Positions 2,770 to 58,664 of a DNA stretch of 64,000 nt are shown piece after piece; the first letter of the stretch is position 1; each line of letters begins with the position of its first letter. This DNA is from Candidatus Methylacidiphilales bacterium (GTDB lineage: Bacteria; Verrucomicrobiota; Verrucomicrobiia; Methylacidiphilales; CAZTYG01), in assembly GCA_033875315.1 (NCBI GenBank), contig JANRJG010000038.1, forward strand, positions 124,001-188,000, given 5' to 3'. The notes under the pieces are model-generated. The model had not been told where the DNA came from. It saw nothing but the letters and a program-made list of their open reading frames with translations, and ran no database searches. Position numbers and translations under genes: made by a program.

Positions 2770-3408
2770 ATGCCCGAACTCACCGTTTCCGAAGCCATCC
2801 TCCAACGCCGCTCCGTCAAGACCTTCAAGTCCGACCCCCTTCCCCCGGACCTGCTCCAGCGGGTCATTGACCTGACGCTCGAAGCGCCGAGCAGCTTCAA
2901 TTTGCAACCCACCCGACTGGTGGTCATCCAGTCGCCGGAACAAAAAGCCGCCCTGGCCGCAGTCGCTTGGGGACAGAAACAAATCACCCAGGCCCCGGTG
3001 GTTTTTGTCTTCACCGTTTCCATCCGCGGCTGGGAGTCCACCATGGACCAAGTCCTGGAGTCCGCCGTCAAAAAGGGTGCCTGGCCGGAAAAACTGGCTG
3101 AGATGATCCGCACTTCGGCCCCTGGATTCCAAGATGCCCTGGCCACCCATGGCCTCGAACGCGAATACGCCGTCAAGGACGCCCTCATTGCCGCCACCAC
3201 CTGTGCCCTGGCCGCCCAATCCCTCGGACTCGGCTCCTGTTTCATGAACGGCTGGGACGAGGCCGGCGTGAAAAAAGTTCTCGGCGTGGAAAACGACCCG
3301 GATATCGCGGTGGCTTTGGTCCTACCGGTTGGCTACATCGAGGTGGCTCCGGGCCATCCCGGACGCCTGCCCCAGTCCATCACCGTGGCCCACGAAAAAC
3401 TGGCCTGA
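2770..3408 (+). CDS. nitroreductase family protein
   Basis: A 212-residue protein of the FMN-dependent nitroreductase family, which reduces nitro compounds, quinones or similar acceptors with NAD(P)H. The N-terminal SEAILQRRSVKTF is the typical FMN-phosphate-binding opening of the family, followed by APSSFNLQPTRLVVI and, near the C-terminus, AAQSLGLGSCFMNGWD with the usual GlgS/C segment. Length matches the family (about 200 residues). The start at 2770 gives the family-typical short N-terminus; upstream in-frame ATGs would add a poorly conserved Ser/Pro-rich leader. Lone gene with its own promoter. The physiological substrate cannot be deduced. Confidence 0.88.
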   Translation: MPELTVSEAILQRRSVKTFKSDPLPPDLLQRVIDLTLEAPSSFNLQPTRLVVIQSPEQKAALAAVAWGQKQITQAPVVFVFTVSIRGWESTMDQVLESAVKKGAWPEKLAEMIRTSAPGFQDALATHGLEREYAVKDALIAATTCALAAQSLGLGSCFMNGWDEAGVKKVLGVENDPDIAVALVLPVGYIEVAPGHPGRLPQSITVAHEKLA

Positions 3409-3426
3409 GATTTCACAATGCAGTTG

Positions 3427-3604
3427 CTCACCGCGAAGAGCGCGAAGAACGCGATGTCATTCGGGTGTTGGCTGTTAAAGCTCCACGCACCGATCGGTCA
3501 GCCTGAATCCCTCCCCGATCCGTATCGGGGCAGGATGACTTCATTGCTATTTTTTGATCCGGTGTTTCTGCTTCGCGTTTGTCGCGCCCTTTGCGGTGAA
3601 AAGA
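3427..3604. repeat. inverted pair of 9-nt-period repeats (module 1)
   Basis: Left end 3427-3455 reads CTCACCGCGAAGAGCGCG followed by AAGAACGCGA; right end 3571-3604 reads CTTCGCGTTTGTCGCGCC followed by CTTTGCGGTGAAAAG. Each end is three 9-nt units, and the two ends are imperfect reverse complements with their GGTGAA-type tails pointing outward. The 115-bp interior holds CCCGATCCGTATCGGGG, itself a hairpin. The module fills the gap between the convergent nitroreductase and response-regulator genes. See the repeat finding for the other copies. Confidence 0.6.
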
Positions 3605-3617
3605 GGATCGTTCCAAC

Positions 3618-4961
3618 TCAGCCCCGCTCGGGAAGGTGGCTGATGCGCACGGTCGACCGGTGGGGCGTGGCGGCTCCGATCGGCCGCTGGCGCAAATGCC
3701 GCTGCATGATCCGCGTGGTCAGACCGCCGGCCGCGCGCAAGCTTTGACGAACCTCCGGATGCACTGGTGGTGGCGGAAACTCCATGGCTTTTTTCACCTG
3801 CTGCACCAGCTCTTTCATCATAAAAGGCTTGGCCAGGGTGCCGATGATGTTGGGGTGGTTCAAGGAGGCGGTCCGGATCTGGTCGGGAAAGCCGGACATC
3901 AACACAATCGGGATGCCCCCCAGCTCGGGATCGGTGCGCAGTTTGGCCGCGAAGGCGTCCCCGTTGAAGTCCGGCAGGGCATAATCCAACAGGATGACCT
4001 GGGGACGGTAGAGTTGCGCGCACTCCATGCCCTCGGCCCCCGTTTCCACGCCGATGATCGCGTGCGAAGGCCAGGTGTGCACCAGCATTTCCTCGGCACA
4101 TTGCAGAATCATCGGGTTGTCATCGACCACCAGAATTTTCGGCAGGGCCAGGAAGCGGGTTTGTTCCTCCTCGTCCACCCCGCCGAGGGACACCACCCGT
4201 TCAGCGAAAGCCGCGGCGGCGACGTTCCCCCCGGCAACGGCTTCGGCGGAAGCCTGGGCCTGGGATTGCATTTTTTGGTCCAATAGACGCGCAGCATCGA
4301 GGAGAAGAGACGGGCTATCGATCGTGATGGAATGGAAAACGGGCACCGGGGCGGGACTCTCCGTGATGGCCCCTCCGCGCCAGCAAAGAATTTCCTCGAA
4401 GGCCGTTTCCCCTTGGAGCGAGCCCGCCACCGCGTGGACAATTTTACCCTGCTCGAGGATGATGCGTCCCCGGGGACCGACCGAACTGACGATCTCCAAT
4501 TGGGTGGTGAATCCCCCCTGGATCTTCATTTGCAGCACCTCGAGCAAACTGACGTGGTGCAGGTGTGCTTGGTAAAACGAATCCGCGGCCAGACTCCCGG
4601 GATTGAGCAACCAGGACAGCATGACCGCCGCCTGTTCCGAGGTGAAGGGCTTGGGCAGGAAGTGGACGGCCCCAGAACGGAGGGCGTTTTCGAATCCCTC
4701 CGGAAGATTCTGCGGCACCAACAACAACATCCGGGCCAGGGGATGGTAGGTCCGGAAATCCATCAGCAGATCGTGGGCTTCCTGGCCCGCCTCCAGGTCC
4801 AGAACCAACACATCCGGCTTGGCCGCGCCCGCAATGCGCTGGGCTTCAAACAGCGAAGAGGCCTGGTGCAAAAGCGCCTCCGGGGCGACATGGAAGATGA
4901 GAGATTCCAGCAACCCGCCCAGACCCGGATCCGGCTCGTAGAGGAGCACCTGAAGCGACAT
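3618..4961 (-). CDS. response regulator: REC, DUF4388 (PATAN), REC
   Basis: A 447-residue protein with a receiver-like domain at each end. Residues 1-120 resemble a receiver (LLYEPDP, then VLVLDLE with Asp55 as possible phosphoacceptor, and KPF near 105). Residues about 130-240 match the DUF4388/PATAN domain (HHVSLLEVLQMKIQGG, ILEQGKIVHAVAGSLQGE). Residues about 275-395 form a standard receiver (ILVVDDNP, VILLDYALPDFNG with the phosphorylatable Asp, IVLMSG, AKPF). There is no DNA-binding or enzymatic output domain, so signalling through protein contacts or phosphorelay is likely. No histidine kinase is adjacent. TATGCT (4973-4978) lies 11 nt before the start. Confidence 0.82.
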   Translation of the reverse strand: MSLQVLLYEPDPGLGGLLESLIFHVAPEALLHQASSLFEAQRIAGAAKPDVLVLDLEAGQEAHDLLMDFRTYHPLARMLLLVPQNLPEGFENALRSGAVHFLPKPFTSEQAAVMLSWLLNPGSLAADSFYQAHLHHVSLLEVLQMKIQGGFTTQLEIVSSVGPRGRIILEQGKIVHAVAGSLQGETAFEEILCWRGGAITESPAPVPVFHSITIDSPSLLLDAARLLDQKMQSQAQASAEAVAGGNVAAAAFAERVVSLGGVDEEEQTRFLALPKILVVDDNPMILQCAEEMLVHTWPSHAIIGVETGAEGMECAQLYRPQVILLDYALPDFNGDAFAAKLRTDPELGGIPIVLMSGFPDQIRTASLNHPNIIGTLAKPFMMKELVQQVKKAMEFPPPPVHPEVRQSLRAAGGLTTRIMQRHLRQRPIGAATPHRSTVRISHLPERG

Positions 4962-12214: not shown

Positions 12215-14128
12215 GTGAACGCCCCGACGGCGATCCTCTCCGGGCGGGAGCCGTTCCTGCGTCTTACCCTGGGCGCTTTTGGGACGGCCCTGACGGCGGC
12301 CATACTCTCTGTTTCCGTTCTCCACTGGGGCGGGGTCTATCCGGCCATTGGCACCTGGTTGCAGATGGCGGGCGGCGCCCTCTGGGCAGTGGTGGCGGCC
12401 ATCTGCGCGCTCAATTTCACCCAGCGTAAAGCTTCCGGTGATCCCATCGACCTCGCGGTCTTCCTCTTCCTGGCCTACGCCGGATGGCGCTACACCACCA
12501 CTCCGGTGGAATACCCCGCGCGCCTCGAATGGCTCTGGATCTTGACCTATGCCGCCATCTTCCTCTTCGTCCGTTACGGGATGCCCAACCGGCACTGGGC
12601 CATGGCCCTGATCGGTCTCTTGGTGGCCGTCGCCCTGGCCAGTTGTATCTATGCCCTGATCAACCGCAACAACCCAACCCACCTCATCTGGGGTCTGCCA
12701 CGGCCGAATTATCAAGAGCGCGTCTCCGGCACCTTTGGTTGCCCGAACCATTTCGCCAACCTCATGGTCATGGCCGCCCTCTGCTGCCTTTTCATCGGTT
12801 CCTATTCCCGCCTGCCCTGGCCCCTGCGCATCTTCCTCTATTACCTGGCCGCCCTGCTCACCACCGGACTCTACTTTTCCATTTCCCGCGGCGGCTACCT
12901 CGCCTGGGTCACCGGCATGGGCGTGGTCGCCTGGTTCCTCTTCCGCAAAGCGGAAATCCGCTGGTGGTGGAAACTCACCGCCGCCATCACCGTCGCTGCC
13001 GGTGCGGTGGTCGTGGTGATCAAAAACCCGTTCGTCATGGAACGGATCGACGGAATGGTCCGTGGAGATATTCGCCAACTATTGGCCGAGGTCAGCCTGC
13101 ATATCTGGCAGATGGCTCCTTGGTGGGGCCACGGGGTCGGTGGTTACGACTTTCTTTATCTGCGCCACCACGGGCTGGTCTTGCAAACACGCGCCCTCTA
13201 CGCCCACTGCGATTACTTCAACACGCTGGTGGACTACGGAGCCGTCGGGCTCGGCTTGATCCTGGTTTTCCTCACCTGCGTCATCGTCGAACTGCGCCGC
13301 AAATCCCGCACCGGCACGCACGAACGCGACCTCCTTCTGGTCCGCCTGGGCTGGGCCGCACTGGCGGCCATGGCCATCCACTCGGTCTTTGATTTCAGCC
13401 TCCACATCCCTGCCTGCGCCGTGGCCTTTTTTATTATTCTGGCCGCTGCCGTCATGCGCACCCACCACGAAGAAAAACACCTTCCATCCGTGCGACTTCC
13501 CCGTCTGGCCTTGGTCTTGGCCGCACTCGCCGCGCTCGCCGCCAGCGGCTACACCACGGCAACCGCCTGGCAAACCGGACGGGCCCTCCGCCTCGTCCCC
13601 ACCAAGGAAAAGGATTTCACCCCCCTGGCAGACGCCGACCTCCGGCGTCTGGGCGAGCAACTCTACGCTCTGGACCCGAATGCCTACCCGCAGCTGGAGC
13701 GGATCGGCGATGCTTACCGTGTGCGCGCGGCCAAGCTGGGGAGCGAATTGAGCCAAAGTCCCGGTTCCCTAGAACTTCTGCGGGCAAGGGAAGATCTGGG
13801 CAAACGATCCCTCATGTACTACCAAAGGGCCCACCAAGCCGCCCCCTTGGAGGACACCCTTCTGGTCAAACAGGCCATGATCCTCGACATCCTGCAACGC
13901 AGCGCCGAAGCCGAGCTGGCTTTCCAAAAAGCCATTAGTCTGCAGCCCCACAATCGTTACTTCCGCTTCCACTACGGCCTGCACCTTTTGGAAAGCGGCG
14001 ACATTGGTGCTGCACTTGATCAATTTCGCTTCTCCGCCTCCATGCCCCTCGATCCGCGCGAAGATCCCGCCCTGCGACAGTTCGCCCTCATGACCATCCA
14101 GAAACTCGAAAAATCCCTCCGTCGCTAA
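12215..14128 (+). CDS. O-antigen ligase-like membrane protein with C-terminal TPR region
   Basis: A 637-residue protein beginning at a GTG with AGGA 7 nt upstream. About 10-12 transmembrane helices occupy residues 15-430; the Wzy_C/WaaL region includes SGTFGCPNHFANLMVM and a large periplasmic loop around residues 290-350 with WWGHGVGGYDF. The last 150 residues form TPR-like helices. WaaL/Wzy family enzymes join or polymerise oligosaccharide repeats at the periplasmic face. Ligase and polymerase cannot be told apart by sequence. It starts 9 bp after jag, so it is probably part of that operon, replacing the usual mnmE. Confidence 0.82.
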   Translation: MNAPTAILSGREPFLRLTLGAFGTALTAAILSVSVLHWGGVYPAIGTWLQMAGGALWAVVAAICALNFTQRKASGDPIDLAVFLFLAYAGWRYTTTPVEYPARLEWLWILTYAAIFLFVRYGMPNRHWAMALIGLLVAVALASCIYALINRNNPTHLIWGLPRPNYQERVSGTFGCPNHFANLMVMAALCCLFIGSYSRLPWPLRIFLYYLAALLTTGLYFSISRGGYLAWVTGMGVVAWFLFRKAEIRWWWKLTAAITVAAGAVVVVIKNPFVMERIDGMVRGDIRQLLAEVSLHIWQMAPWWGHGVGGYDFLYLRHHGLVLQTRALYAHCDYFNTLVDYGAVGLGLILVFLTCVIVELRRKSRTGTHERDLLLVRLGWAALAAMAIHSVFDFSLHIPACAVAFFIILAAAVMRTHHEEKHLPSVRLPRLALVLAALAALAASGYTTATAWQTGRALRLVPTKEKDFTPLADADLRRLGEQLYALDPNAYPQLERIGDAYRVRAAKLGSELSQSPGSLELLRAREDLGKRSLMYYQRAHQAAPLEDTLLVKQAMILDILQRSAEAELAFQKAISLQPHNRYFRFHYGLHLLESGDIGAALDQFRFSASMPLDPREDPALRQFALMTIQKLEKSLRR

Positions 14129-14144
14129 GGCGGAAGGATGCTGT

Positions 14145-14314
14145 TGAACCACAGAGGACACAGTGAACACAGAGTTGAAAACAGGGTCTACAAAAGAGCG
14201 GCGAACAATCCCTACTGAGTGGACGCTCGATTCAACTTCATCGCATGCTGATCAAAAAGGATAACTACCCAACCCCTTTCTTCCTCTGTGCCCTCTGTGT
14301 CCTCTGTGGTAAAC
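14145..14314. repeat. inverted pair of 9-nt-period CACAGAG repeats (module 2)
   Basis: Left end 14145-14176 reads TGAACCACAGAGGACACAG then TGAACACAGAGTTG; right end 14282-14314 reads TCCTCTGTGCCCTCTGTG then TCCTCTGTGGTAAACC. Both ends consist of 9-nt units of the form NNCACAGAG (or its complement) and they are inverted relative to one another with tails pointing outward. About 100 bp of unrelated sequence lies between. The element fills the gap between the O-antigen ligase and ndk; the rest of the gap shows nothing else. Confidence 0.65.
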
Positions 14315-14387
14315 CAACTGAATCGTTCCGTTCGCCCTTCAAAATGCGCTTTCCAAAAACGCCGCCATGGCTAGCTTGGGGAACCTT

Positions 14388-52920: not shown

Positions 52921-53003
52921 CCCTCCTATCACCGGCGAGAACTGCCTTCCACACCGAACCGGGAAAGGGCCGGCCGGCCATGCCTTCCCACCTCCTTCCT
53001 TTT

Positions 53004-53035
53004 CCTTTGCGTCCTTCGCGCTCTTCGCGGTTAAA
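53004..53035. repeat. single 9-nt-period repeat copy upstream of coaD
   Basis: CCTTTGCGTCCTTCGCGCTC followed by TTCGCGGTTAAAT: TTTGCGTCC, TTCGCGCTC, TTCGCGG and tail TTAAAT. It lies 13 bp before the coaD ATG, and its TTGCGT (53008-53013) and TTAAAT (53030-53035) are in promoter-like relation (16-nt spacer). No inverted partner is visible. Confidence 0.5.
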
Positions 53036-56268: not shown

Positions 56269-57582
56269 TCAGGCGGACGCCCGGCTGTCCAACAACCCCT
56301 CGATCATCCCGACCGTTTTGCGCAGGGCCCCGCTTTTGCGCTGGTACATCTCCCGCGCCTTGCAGCCCACGGCTTGGGCTTCCTGGGGATGGTCCAGCCA
56401 GCGACGCAAGATCTTCTCCAACCCGGCTTCATCCGGCACCTGTGCCAACCCGCCCCCGGCTTGGAACTCCTCCACCGCCGTGCGGAAGTTTTCCACCCGC
56501 GGCCCCACCACAACAGGCTTCCCGGCCTGCGCCGCTTCCAGAAAATTCTGGCATCCCTGGCCCTCGGGGGCGCGCAGGGTCTTGCCCACGAAGACCACCG
56601 TGGCCAGCCCGTAGGTCCGGCGCAATTCACCCGTGGTGTCCAGGATGAAGACATCCGCATGTTCACCCTCCGGCATCGCACCAGCCTCGGTGCGCAATCG
56701 CACTTTCCATCCGGCGGCGGTGATCAGTGGAACCAGCCCGGGAGTCCGCTCCACATGCCGCGGCACGAGGAGGAAGCGCAGGTCCGGATGATCTTTTTTC
56801 AGCGTGGCGTAAACCCGGAGAAGGATTTCCTCCTCGCCGGGGAACGTGCTACCGGCCATGAACACCGGATCGTCCTCCGACCAACCCGCCGCCGCACGCA
56901 GCTCCCCGGCCAACGAATCCCCACCCCCGCCATCGAGTTCATACTTGATGTTCCCGGTGATGAACAAGGCATGCGGCGGAAAACCGGCGGCGGCAAAACG
57001 GGTCCGGTCACGCTCATCCTGCACACACACCACATCCAGCAGCCCGAGGATGGGGCGGGTCCACCGGCGGACATATCGCAGTCGTTTTTCTGAGCGGATG
57101 GATAGTCGCCCGTTGATGAGCCAGACCGGGACCTTCCTTTTCCGGGCCTGCCAGAGGTGGTTGGGCCAGATTTCCTGTTCGACCAACACCAGGGCCGCGG
57201 GCCGGATATGGCGGAACGCCGAGGCAACCGCCGGGGCCAGGTCCACCGGGCTGTAAACCACCGCCGTGTGGGCGTCGGACGCACTCTCGGCCACCGCCCG
57301 GCCGGTCGACGTCGTCGTGCTCAGGACGATGTTCTGCCCGGGACGCCGCTCTCGCAACGCGCGCACCAAGGCCAGGGCAATCATCATCTCGCCGACACTG
57401 ACCGCATGGATCCAAAGCGGCGACTCCAACCGGGCCAAACGCTCGCGCACCGGTTGTCGGTAAATTCCCAGTCTTTGCGAAAAGTGACGCCGGAAATGCC
57501 CCCGGCGCAGCATGCGCAACAGGTAATACGGCCAACAGACCAGAAACAGCAGCGGGAAAAGCAGATTGTAGAAGATTTTCAA
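56269..57582 (-). CDS. waaA: 3-deoxy-D-manno-octulosonic acid (Kdo) transferase
   Basis: A glycosyltransferase that adds Kdo from CMP-Kdo to lipid A, marking an LPS-producing outer membrane. N-terminal membrane anchor (FYNLLFPLLFLVCWPYYLLR), LWIHAVSVGEMMIALALVRA with the catalytic Glu, VLSTTTSTGRAVAE, LINGRLSIRSEKRLRYVRRW and the C-terminal PVVVGPRVENFRTAVEEFQA are family motifs. The TTG at 57582 gives 437 residues, close to the 425 of E. coli. A longer frame (GTG at 57648) would put the dispersed 9-nt repeat inside the protein as FAFFAPFV, which is unlikely to be conserved. Confidence 0.9.
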   Translation of the reverse strand: MKIFYNLLFPLLFLVCWPYYLLRMLRRGHFRRHFSQRLGIYRQPVRERLARLESPLWIHAVSVGEMMIALALVRALRERRPGQNIVLSTTTSTGRAVAESASDAHTAVVYSPVDLAPAVASAFRHIRPAALVLVEQEIWPNHLWQARKRKVPVWLINGRLSIRSEKRLRYVRRWTRPILGLLDVVCVQDERDRTRFAAAGFPPHALFITGNIKYELDGGGGDSLAGELRAAAGWSEDDPVFMAGSTFPGEEEILLRVYATLKKDHPDLRFLLVPRHVERTPGLVPLITAAGWKVRLRTEAGAMPEGEHADVFILDTTGELRRTYGLATVVFVGKTLRAPEGQGCQNFLEAAQAGKPVVVGPRVENFRTAVEEFQAGGGLAQVPDEAGLEKILRRWLDHPQEAQAVGCKAREMYQRKSGALRKTVGMIEGLLDSRASA

Positions 57583-57693
57583 CACGAAGGGCGCGAAGAA
57601 CGCGAAGTTGGAAGCTTGGGGATTTGAGAGAGTAGTCTTCGTTGACACTCCAAATCAACCGCCTTTCTTCGCGACCTTCGTGTTCCTGAGGTG
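57576..57693. repeat. inverted pair of 9-nt-period repeats (module 3) at the waaA start
   Basis: Left end 57576-57610 reads TTTTCAACACGAAGGGCGCG then AAGAACGCGAAGTTG; right end 57664-57693 reads TTCTTCGCGACCTTCGTG then TTCCTGAGGTGA. Both consist of 9-nt units, face each other as inverted repeats and have their tails (TTGAAAA on the minus strand, GGTGA on the plus strand) outside. The module fills the gap between xerC and waaA. Confidence 0.55.
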
Positions 57694-57704: not shown

Positions 57705-58664
57705 TCAGGCCCGCGGGTGTGCCTTGCGGTAGGCCTGCTTCAAGCGCTCGGAGGTCACCGCCGTGTAAACCTGCGTTGTCGACAGGCTGGCATGGCCCAG
57801 AAGCTCCTGCACACTCCGAAGGTCGGCCCCCCGGTCAAGCAGATGGGTGGCAAAGGTGTGCCGCAATTTGTGCGGGCTGAGCCGGTGGTCCAGGCCGCAA
57901 TACGATAGGTATTCCTTCAACATCAACTGGATCGCCCGTCCTCCCAGCGCCCGTCCATCCGGCCCCAGGAAAACCGCTTCGCCGCCCAGCTTCAACGGAA
58001 GCGCCTCCCGGTAGTTGTCCAGCGCCTCCAGCGCCGGTTCGCCCAGAACCACCAGGCGTTCCTTCTTCCCCTTGCCCATCACCCGCGCGGTGGTGGCACG
58101 GCGGTCGATGTCGTCCATTTCCAAGCGGACCAGCTCATCCAAACGCATTCCCGTGCTGTAAAAAAATTCCAGGATCGCGGCATCGCGCAGGAACTGCCAG
58201 GCCTCTTTCTTTCTTCCCCGCCCGCGTTTCACGCCCGCCGCCTCTTTCATTCTTTCCAGCGGCGCGGCCAGCAGGCGCAACACTTGTTCCTCACCCAGGA
58301 ACAGGGGCAGCCGCTTCTTTTTCACCGGCAGCTTCAAGTCGGTCAGCGGATTGTCAGTCAGCCTCCCTTGTCGCTGGAGGTATTTATAGAATGACCGGAG
58401 GGCCGAGAAACGCAACCGGACCGAGGCCGGGCCCAGCCGCCGCTCTGTCGACAGGCGGTAAAGGTATTGGCGGAAGTGGGCCGGGCCCAGCTTTCCCCAC
58501 TGCTGCCCCGGAAAGGCCGCCCCACACTCCAGCAGGGCCTGCCGGTAGTTCCGCCCGGTTTTGTCGGAGTATTGTTTCTGCACCCGCAGGTGGGCGAGGA
58601 ATTCCTCCGCCCAAGCGGCGGGCTCGGGGAAACGATCTCCCGTGGCTTCCCCCTCTTTCTTCAT
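57705..58664 (-). CDS. xerC: tyrosine recombinase XerC
   Basis: A 319-residue site-specific recombinase that resolves chromosome dimers at dif. The catalytic set is complete: Arg174 (STGMRLDELVRLEMDDI), Lys198 (MGKGKKERLV), His265 and Arg268 (SPHKLRHTFATHLLDRG), His291 (LLGHASLSTTQVY) and Tyr300. The N-terminal SAM-like domain spans about 15-105. A Lys/Arg-rich insert (MKEAAGVKRGRGRKKEAWQF) near residue 140 is not usual. Its ATG overlaps the stop of the luxC-like gene (ATGA), an unexpected partner. XerC and XerD cannot be told apart from sequence alone. Confidence 0.9.
   Translation of the reverse strand: MKKEGEATGDRFPEPAAWAEEFLAHLRVQKQYSDKTGRNYRQALLECGAAFPGQQWGKLGPAHFRQYLYRLSTERRLGPASVRLRFSALRSFYKYLQRQGRLTDNPLTDLKLPVKKKRLPLFLGEEQVLRLLAAPLERMKEAAGVKRGRGRKKEAWQFLRDAAILEFFYSTGMRLDELVRLEMDDIDRRATTARVMGKGKKERLVVLGEPALEALDNYREALPLKLGGEAVFLGPDGRALGGRAIQLMLKEYLSYCGLDHRLSPHKLRHTFATHLLDRGADLRSVQELLGHASLSTTQVYTAVTSERLKQAYRKAHPRA

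Follow-up and report, generated by a model that had tools for sequence, protein, structure and literature searches.

Tandem short-word arrays in a Methylacidiphilales genome as probable terminal inverted repeats of very small mobile elements

The tandem arrays of short words found between genes of this Candidatus Methylacidiphilales bacterium are, with a probability that we put at about three in four, the terminal inverted repeats of very small mobile elements, whose copies in the window (the whole stretch of DNA analysed, 64,000 nucleotides of contig C38) contain no gene and were most likely moved in trans by a protein of the GxxExxY family. The arrays come in inverted pairs, one to each arm, and such a pair bounds a mobile element, an arrangement absent from the sequence-only reading of this DNA, which had described two repeat families as different words in the same grammar. 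Larger relatives of these elements carry a single gene between their arms, and the word and spacing of the repeats change together with that gene.

Paired arms of short intergenic elements

The CTCTGTG element of the window is whole and gene-less and spans positions 14125..14333 (no strand assigned), from an outer tail CTAAGGCGGAAGGATGCTGTTGAACC on the left to a tail GGTAAACCAACTGAATCGTTCCG on the right, its limits being set by alignment with four other copies in the genome and with the right ends of six more. It occupies the space that separates an O-antigen ligase gene (stop codon 14126-14128) from ndk (start 14367). Its left inverted arm (14148..14175, minus strand) consists of three 9-nt units that read CTCTGTG, CACTGTG and CTCTGTG on the minus strand, and CACAGAG (14150), CACAGTG (14159) and CACAGAG (14168) on the forward strand; all five aligned copies retain CACAGTG, the odd middle unit. 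This arm pairs with the right arm (14282..14314, plus strand), CTCTGTG CC CTCTGTG TC CTCTGTG G TAAA, in which direct reading places the units at 14284-14290, 14293-14299 and 14302-14308, followed by G-TAAA. When the element is folded as RNA the arms pair, at -62.9 kcal/mol (z -5.6).

The second word, CTTCGCG, is represented by a right arm at 53004..53035 (plus strand; CTTTGCG TC CTTCGCG CT CTTCGCG G TTAAA), with CTTTGCG at 53005-53011 and CTTCGCG at 53014-53020 and 53023-53029, followed by G-TTAAA, and this arm ends 13 nt upstream of the start codon (53048) of a CTP_transf_like gene. The inverted-pair search of C38 reported no pair for it, and its left partner, placed near 52929-52950 by eye only, is doubtful. 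The same search found two further CTTCGCG-family elements in the window, neither with an assigned strand. The element at 3409..3620, which begins directly after the stop codon of a nitroreductase gene (3406-3408), has arms at 3430-3456 (minus) and 3571-3599 (plus) and a tail AATGCAGTT at 3417-3425 (C38:127430-127599, score 17). That at 57581..57684 has arms at 57583-57607 (minus) and 57667-57682 (plus), and lies between a Kdo-transferase-like gene and a tyrosine recombinase gene (C38:181581-181684, score 17.5). The recombinase gene adjoining the latter element (Phage_integrase match; 57705-58664, minus strand) is probably a housekeeping gene of the Xer type.

Copies of both word families are the inverted arms of 100-210 bp elements between genes. 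The elements of the window have no gene inside, unlike their larger relatives, and show the layout of MITEs, being short and gene-less, with terminal inverted repeats and several copies.

Both families repeat every 9 nt, with a G behind the last unit, and they share one tail. The sequence-only reading had claimed that period and tail, rather than the word, are what they share, and this holds; the tail proved longer than noted there, as an outer tail of 20 nt, AACTGCATnnTTCCGGCTTA, is common to both families and present at 22 of 49 arms. Allowing at most 4 mismatches of 14, the tail GGTNAACTGCATnnTTCCGGCTTA was found in the CTCTGTG family at 10 of 12 arms and in the CTTCGCG family at 12 of 37; 300 shuffled tails matched on average 0.55 of the 49 arms and never more than 8. 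Away from the arms, its matches on C38 were near background (35 vs 21 reversed). A degenerate motif that covers both words on the other strand, CRCNRAGNNCRCNRAGNNCRC, occurs 68 times in the 3.15-Mb genome and never when reversed, and over 40 genomes of the order, this one included, 396 times against 13 reversed. Intermediate forms between the two words, about which the earlier reading had asked, exist among the 136 units at the 68 sites: CGCGAAG (71), CACGAAG (19), CACAGAG (16), CGCAAAG (10), CGCTAAG (7), CGCCAAG (5), CGCGGAG (3) and others (5). As CACAGAG and CGCGAAG were adjacent in none of the 68 sites, each element keeps its own word.

Placement, the other question raised at that stage, is alike as well: both families occupy short gaps between genes. 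On C38, 92% of which was called coding, 8 of 13 motif sites are clear of greedily called ORFs. Three of the other five are in the window: the sites at 14288 and 53009 lie between Pfam-identified genes and overlap only an antisense or spurious ORF, and the site at 57583 falls in the 5' end of an ORF for which too early a start may have been called. C38:19510, beside a GxxExxY gene, and C38:105336 make up the five.

A word-blind search of C38 (286 kb, window included) yielded 11 tandem arrays with an inverted partner, two of which (27171, 54958) resemble plain coding sequence. Pairings on this contig with a score of at least 14 numbered 18, against 2 in the reversed control, and those with at least 16 numbered 8 against 0. 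Element density is patchy, since C38 has 11 inverted tandem pairs and contig C9 none over its first 160 kb.

The five CTCTGTG copies have the same left arm, largely different interiors and unrelated outer flanks. The copy at C14:35933-36189 (L004/L023) contains, nested within it, a small inverted element built of 6-nt words of the CTCGTGCTCGTTCTC type, resembling the 6-nt words found at the S23 gene of locus L071. Another sequence, GAGCCTATCCGGATA, has 48 sites vs 5 reversed (at most 2 mismatches), lies near many contig ends of the window's genome (for example C14:123-137, C29:123-137, C39:123-137 and C40:123-137; L275-L304), and directly follows the shared tail in several arms; a multi-copy insertion sequence with a preference for this tail probably ends here.

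Genes between the arms, and the period and word that accompany them

The single gene between the arms of the larger relatives encodes either GxxExxY (TIGR04256/PF13366), which has a PD-(D/E)XK nuclease fold, or S23/IVP (TIGR02436/PF05635), a four-helix-bundle protein familiar from the intervening sequences of 23S rRNA. In the window's genome, inverted repeats were seen by eye on both sides of 5 of 5 GxxExxY and 7 of 7 S23/IVP genes; scored with 300-nt flanks, the same 12 genes range from 10.5 to 27.5, the low values indicating that some arms are worn. A gene-bearing CACAGAG element was not found in this genome.

The arm test was extended to oriented loci with 250-nt flanks from the 40 genomes, with 340 phantom genes of the same length at the same loci as control. 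Inverted arms above the 99% phantom level (13.3) were present at 54 of 58 GxxExxY genes and absent at 4; for S23/IVP, 24 of 36 genes lie between such complementary ends and 12 do not. Scores above the phantom maximum (25.5) were reached by 17 GxxExxY and 5 S23 genes. The 58 GxxExxY loci derive from 65 match rows, from which 7 fragments or partial genes were left out, and the 36 S23 loci from 40 rows, 2 of which were below the cut-off, leaving 38, and 2 more dropped for short flanks. Median lengths of the gene-bearing elements are 476 bp (GxxExxY) and 450 bp (S23). In one genome, G024, which has 189 sites of the 9-nt motif, two GxxExxY genes (L143, L144) lie between very long inverted arms of ~100-150 nt with larger inner repeats, and these loci were left out of the period counts given below.

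A named sample from many phyla, for which the best 80 were taken out of at least 570 relatives of a single narrow GxxExxY subfamily and which is hence no fair sample of phyla, showed arms above 13.3 at 43 of 80 loci and no such arms at 37 (81 loci with one viral locus, 80 being tested as one flank was too short). The positive loci include Verrucomicrobiota, Planctomycetota, Flavobacterium, Geobacter, Chloroflexi, a cyanobacterium and a Methanoculleus. Sphingomonad loci mostly lacked arms (among L193-L258, e.g. L205, L212, L221 and L238). The arm-less loci, many of them sphingomonad, indicate that GxxExxY also exists outside such elements, and in sphingomonads it is perhaps a settled host gene. 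In viral contigs the S23 query had no match and the GxxExxY query one locus.

GxxExxY has an invariant or nearly invariant pattern of E, D, E-x-K and Q and a match to Pfam PDDEXK_3. Its AlphaFold model (pLDDT 95.3) has as best PDB match 4ic1, SSO0001, which we take to be a Cas4 protein (Z 9.5, rmsd 4.4, 102 residues), followed by restriction-endonuclease-like folds and Hjc Holliday junction resolvases, where matches with Z <8 may reflect a common arrangement only. Having both the fold and the E...D...ExK residues, GxxExxY is placed among the PD-(D/E)XK nucleases, with nuclease activity as a prediction from its model. PADLOC models for Cas4 and for a reverse-transcriptase-associated PDDEXK protein match some GxxExxY members weakly, and S23 is related to the solved structures 2gsc and 2rld.

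Periods were counted for arms with a score above 13.3 and below 60 and a periodicity z above 3 (42 GxxExxY, 24 S23). The GxxExxY arms have periods of 8 nt (14), 9 nt (19), 10 nt (8) and 6 nt (1), that is 41 of 42 at 8-10 nt, and the S23 arms have periods of 6 nt (3), 7 nt (18) and 8 nt (3), that is 21 of 24 at 6-7 nt (at least 8 nt versus less; Fisher test; p-value: 5e-13). In the named sample, 29 of the 33 loci with a clear period have 8 nt and 4 have 9 nt. The sequence-only reading had suggested that the 9 nt serve recognition of one face of the helix or encode a tripeptide. Neither suggestion is borne out, as the period follows the carried protein: sister elements of the same plan use 6, 7, 8 or 10 nt, values at odds both with a constant helical repeat and with multiples of three.

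The words follow the protein too. When protein identity was compared with arm composition by Mantel test, closer proteins had more similar arm words in both families (r 0.41 for 53 GxxExxY and 0.48 for 22 S23; p-value: 2e-4 each), with permutations that are blind to relatedness, so that common descent of whole elements is part of this signal. On the GxxExxY tree, the period changes among 8, 9 and 10 nt 8 times, compared to a mean of 18 and a minimum of 13 when shuffled; removal of 12 orthologous loci gives 7 changes against 13 (minimum 9). Over the 40 genomes, the count of the 9-nt motif tracks the presence of GxxExxY (rank test; p-value: 2e-4) and, less strongly, that of S23 (p-value: 0.004). 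Among the 12 genomes with a motif count of at least 5, G006 and G008 lack a GxxExxY match; the motif words of G006 look coding, and G008 has S23.

Occupied, empty and swapped sites, and how the elements may move

Occupied and empty states were compared at two sites in relatives of the same order, for elements other than the window's own. One element of G025 (L145), which carries GxxExxY between CACGGAT arms, lies between two genes that are a few bases apart in G015, where the element is missing; in G009 (~95% identical) the gap holds a different insert with inverted ends. The gap between two genes that we take, from their sequences, to be gatA and gatB is a 10-bp spacer in G015. In G009 it contains a GxxExxY element whose units are of 9 nt, and in the ~96% identical G025 an S23 element whose units are of 7 nt; its flanks are 95.5 and 97.4% identical between the latter two genomes. 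At the empty sites compared, no target-site duplication was definable. The elements have an outer tail, and no parent transposon was found for them. Different elements also occupy one intergenic gap between flanks 94-98% identical in the pairs L102/L148 (S23 versus GxxExxY), L075/L076, L091/L092 and L104/L107, the proteins of the last three pairs being 64%, 70% and 74% identical. These swapped pairs represent rapid replacement or repeated insertion. A search with L145 as query gave 111 matches in G009 and 116 in G025, and among the matches listed nearly all are to the arms, meaning that gene-less copies are numerous.

A terminus comprises two to four short tandem units, in this genome often with the outer tail, and a complete element measures ~450-480 bp, with GxxExxY or S23/IVP as the one gene between the arms. 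In the mechanism that we propose, a GxxExxY protein would most likely move the gene-less copies of the window in trans, and the nearest candidate mobiliser in the genome is the GxxExxY gene at C38:19563-19913, the own arms of which are CTTCGCG. Because the motif count tracks GxxExxY and not reverse transcriptase, we infer that the units are recognised by the protein which the element carries, that this protein acts on the arms when they are folded or paired, and that host enzymes finish the reaction. One subunit may bind each unit, which would explain the distinct word and spacing of every protein lineage. The two arms would fold on each other to form the substrate, the GxxExxY nuclease would cut at the folded arm, and host repair or replication would complete insertion into the short gaps between stop and start codons, where it would be tolerated.

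Elements swapped between flanks of 94-98% identity, as in the pairs above, would also be produced by a homing-type exchange, in which a nuclease cuts the locus bearing a rival element and recombination of the flanks copies the other element in, mainly as replacement at fixed sites. We regard this as conceivable but doubtful, as movement to new sites is needed to account for the dispersal of one arm family in many copies, seen in G009 and in G025, and for the five CTCTGTG copies, whose outer flanks are unrelated, and the fixed sites may just be the few places where insertion is harmless. Movement at the RNA level, with a transcript that folds via its arms, is bound by S23 or GxxExxY and is copied to a new site by a reverse transcriptase, agrees with the strong RNA folding of the window's CTCTGTG element, with the resemblance of S23/IVP to Avd of diversity-generating retroelements, as treated in part of PMC10053308, and with the excision of the Coxiella IVS, an S23 element, from 23S rRNA via its paired ends, as given in the relevant part of PMC4990558; intervening-sequence RNAs might once have moved likewise. 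However, there is no RVT_1 match in the window's genome (95.65% complete), nor in the element-bearing genomes G001, G009, G010, G011, G021 and G025, and over the 40 genomes the motif count is independent of reverse transcriptase (p-value: 0.53), so that we consider this route unlikely. The form of it that needs a reverse transcriptase in the same genome is discarded, since the window's genome lacks an RVT_1 match.

Being short, intergenic, foldable and numerous, the repeats recall REP/REPIN sequences that a Y1 (RAYT) transposase mobilises in trans; GxxExxY and S23 would then be passengers. Matches to Y1_Tnp occur in 30 of the 40 genomes, with three weak ones in the window's genome, but the motif count is not significantly related to them over the 40 genomes (p-value: 0.09; rho 0.10), G013, G023 and G019 have 48, 15 and 12 Y1 matches and zero motif sites, and the arms track the carried protein instead; the Y1/RAYT reading is weakened by this and appears very unlikely. 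Tight intergenic gaps, often directly upstream of start codons, would suit host-owned regulatory or structural sites (for instance for the nucleoid or mRNA stability) that are not mobile and enclose genes by coincidence. Such sites are hardly credible here, given that in two cases the same gap is empty or differently occupied between relatives, that two gene families are associated with the arms, that word and protein co-vary, and that one element is nested in another (the C14 copy).

Relation to known elements and significance

We place the elements with the small mobile elements that have inverted ends, and the nearest of these are the intervening sequences (IVS). Animal foldback transposons have long inverted ends made of short tandem direct repeats and resemble the present elements in this layout of the ends only, as they are eukaryotic, larger and equipped with other proteins. 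Cyanobacterial STRR repeats, which are tandem heptamers in intergenic gaps, can be likened to the arms. Among bacterial MITEs, BrickBuilt of Porphyromonas gingivalis is, in the part of its description used here, similarly small and intergenic, with inverted ends, many copies and a tandem array inside, an inner 23-nt minisatellite (PMC4596501), whereas in our elements the tandem units form the inverted ends and the gene-bearing relative has no known transposase. The TAACTGA heptamers of marine Beggiatoaceae are intergenic, often right upstream of start codons, and scattered over phyla, and their authors allow for a mobile element; on the other hand, the passages that describe them speak of direct repeats with one inverted set and do not name S23 or GxxExxY (PMC4679880).

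The Coxiella burnetii IVS is described, in the pertinent passages of PMC4990558, as a 428-nt sequence whose complementary ends enclose an S23 gene and whose 5' part contains the heptamer GACAGAT three times in tandem. It is like the S23 elements reported here in having one S23 gene between complementary ends, a 7-nt grammar and a similar length (median ~450 bp here), and by this analogy it fits the S23 branch of the element class. Known IVS lie inside rRNA genes, in contrast to the window elements, which lie between protein genes and have no S23 gene inside, and GxxExxY, periods of 8-10 nt and gene-less copies are features of the present elements and not of that account of the Coxiella IVS, as far as those passages go (PMC4990558). 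Among the open-licence PMC papers searched, none links such arms to GxxExxY or, outside rRNA, to S23.

A broader proposal, for and against which we would lay even odds, is that GxxExxY and S23 genes form one large unrecognised superclass of minimal mobile elements in many bacterial phyla and some archaea, moving without a transposase, integrase or reverse transcriptase of their own. The protein would read a short word at its own fixed spacing, word and protein would drift together, rival lineages would displace each other at the same gaps, and the IVS of 23S rRNA would be members that landed in rRNA.

Many bacterial genomes are full of odd short tandem words, and through the arms two common 'hypothetical' families, GxxExxY and S23, gain a testable role. 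The riddle of the 23S rRNA intervening sequences is thereby extended to the rest of the genome. The finding points to movement of DNA by a single protein of ~120 residues, and it offers a natural series of proteins and target words that have changed together, which would be useful for learning how DNA or RNA is read.
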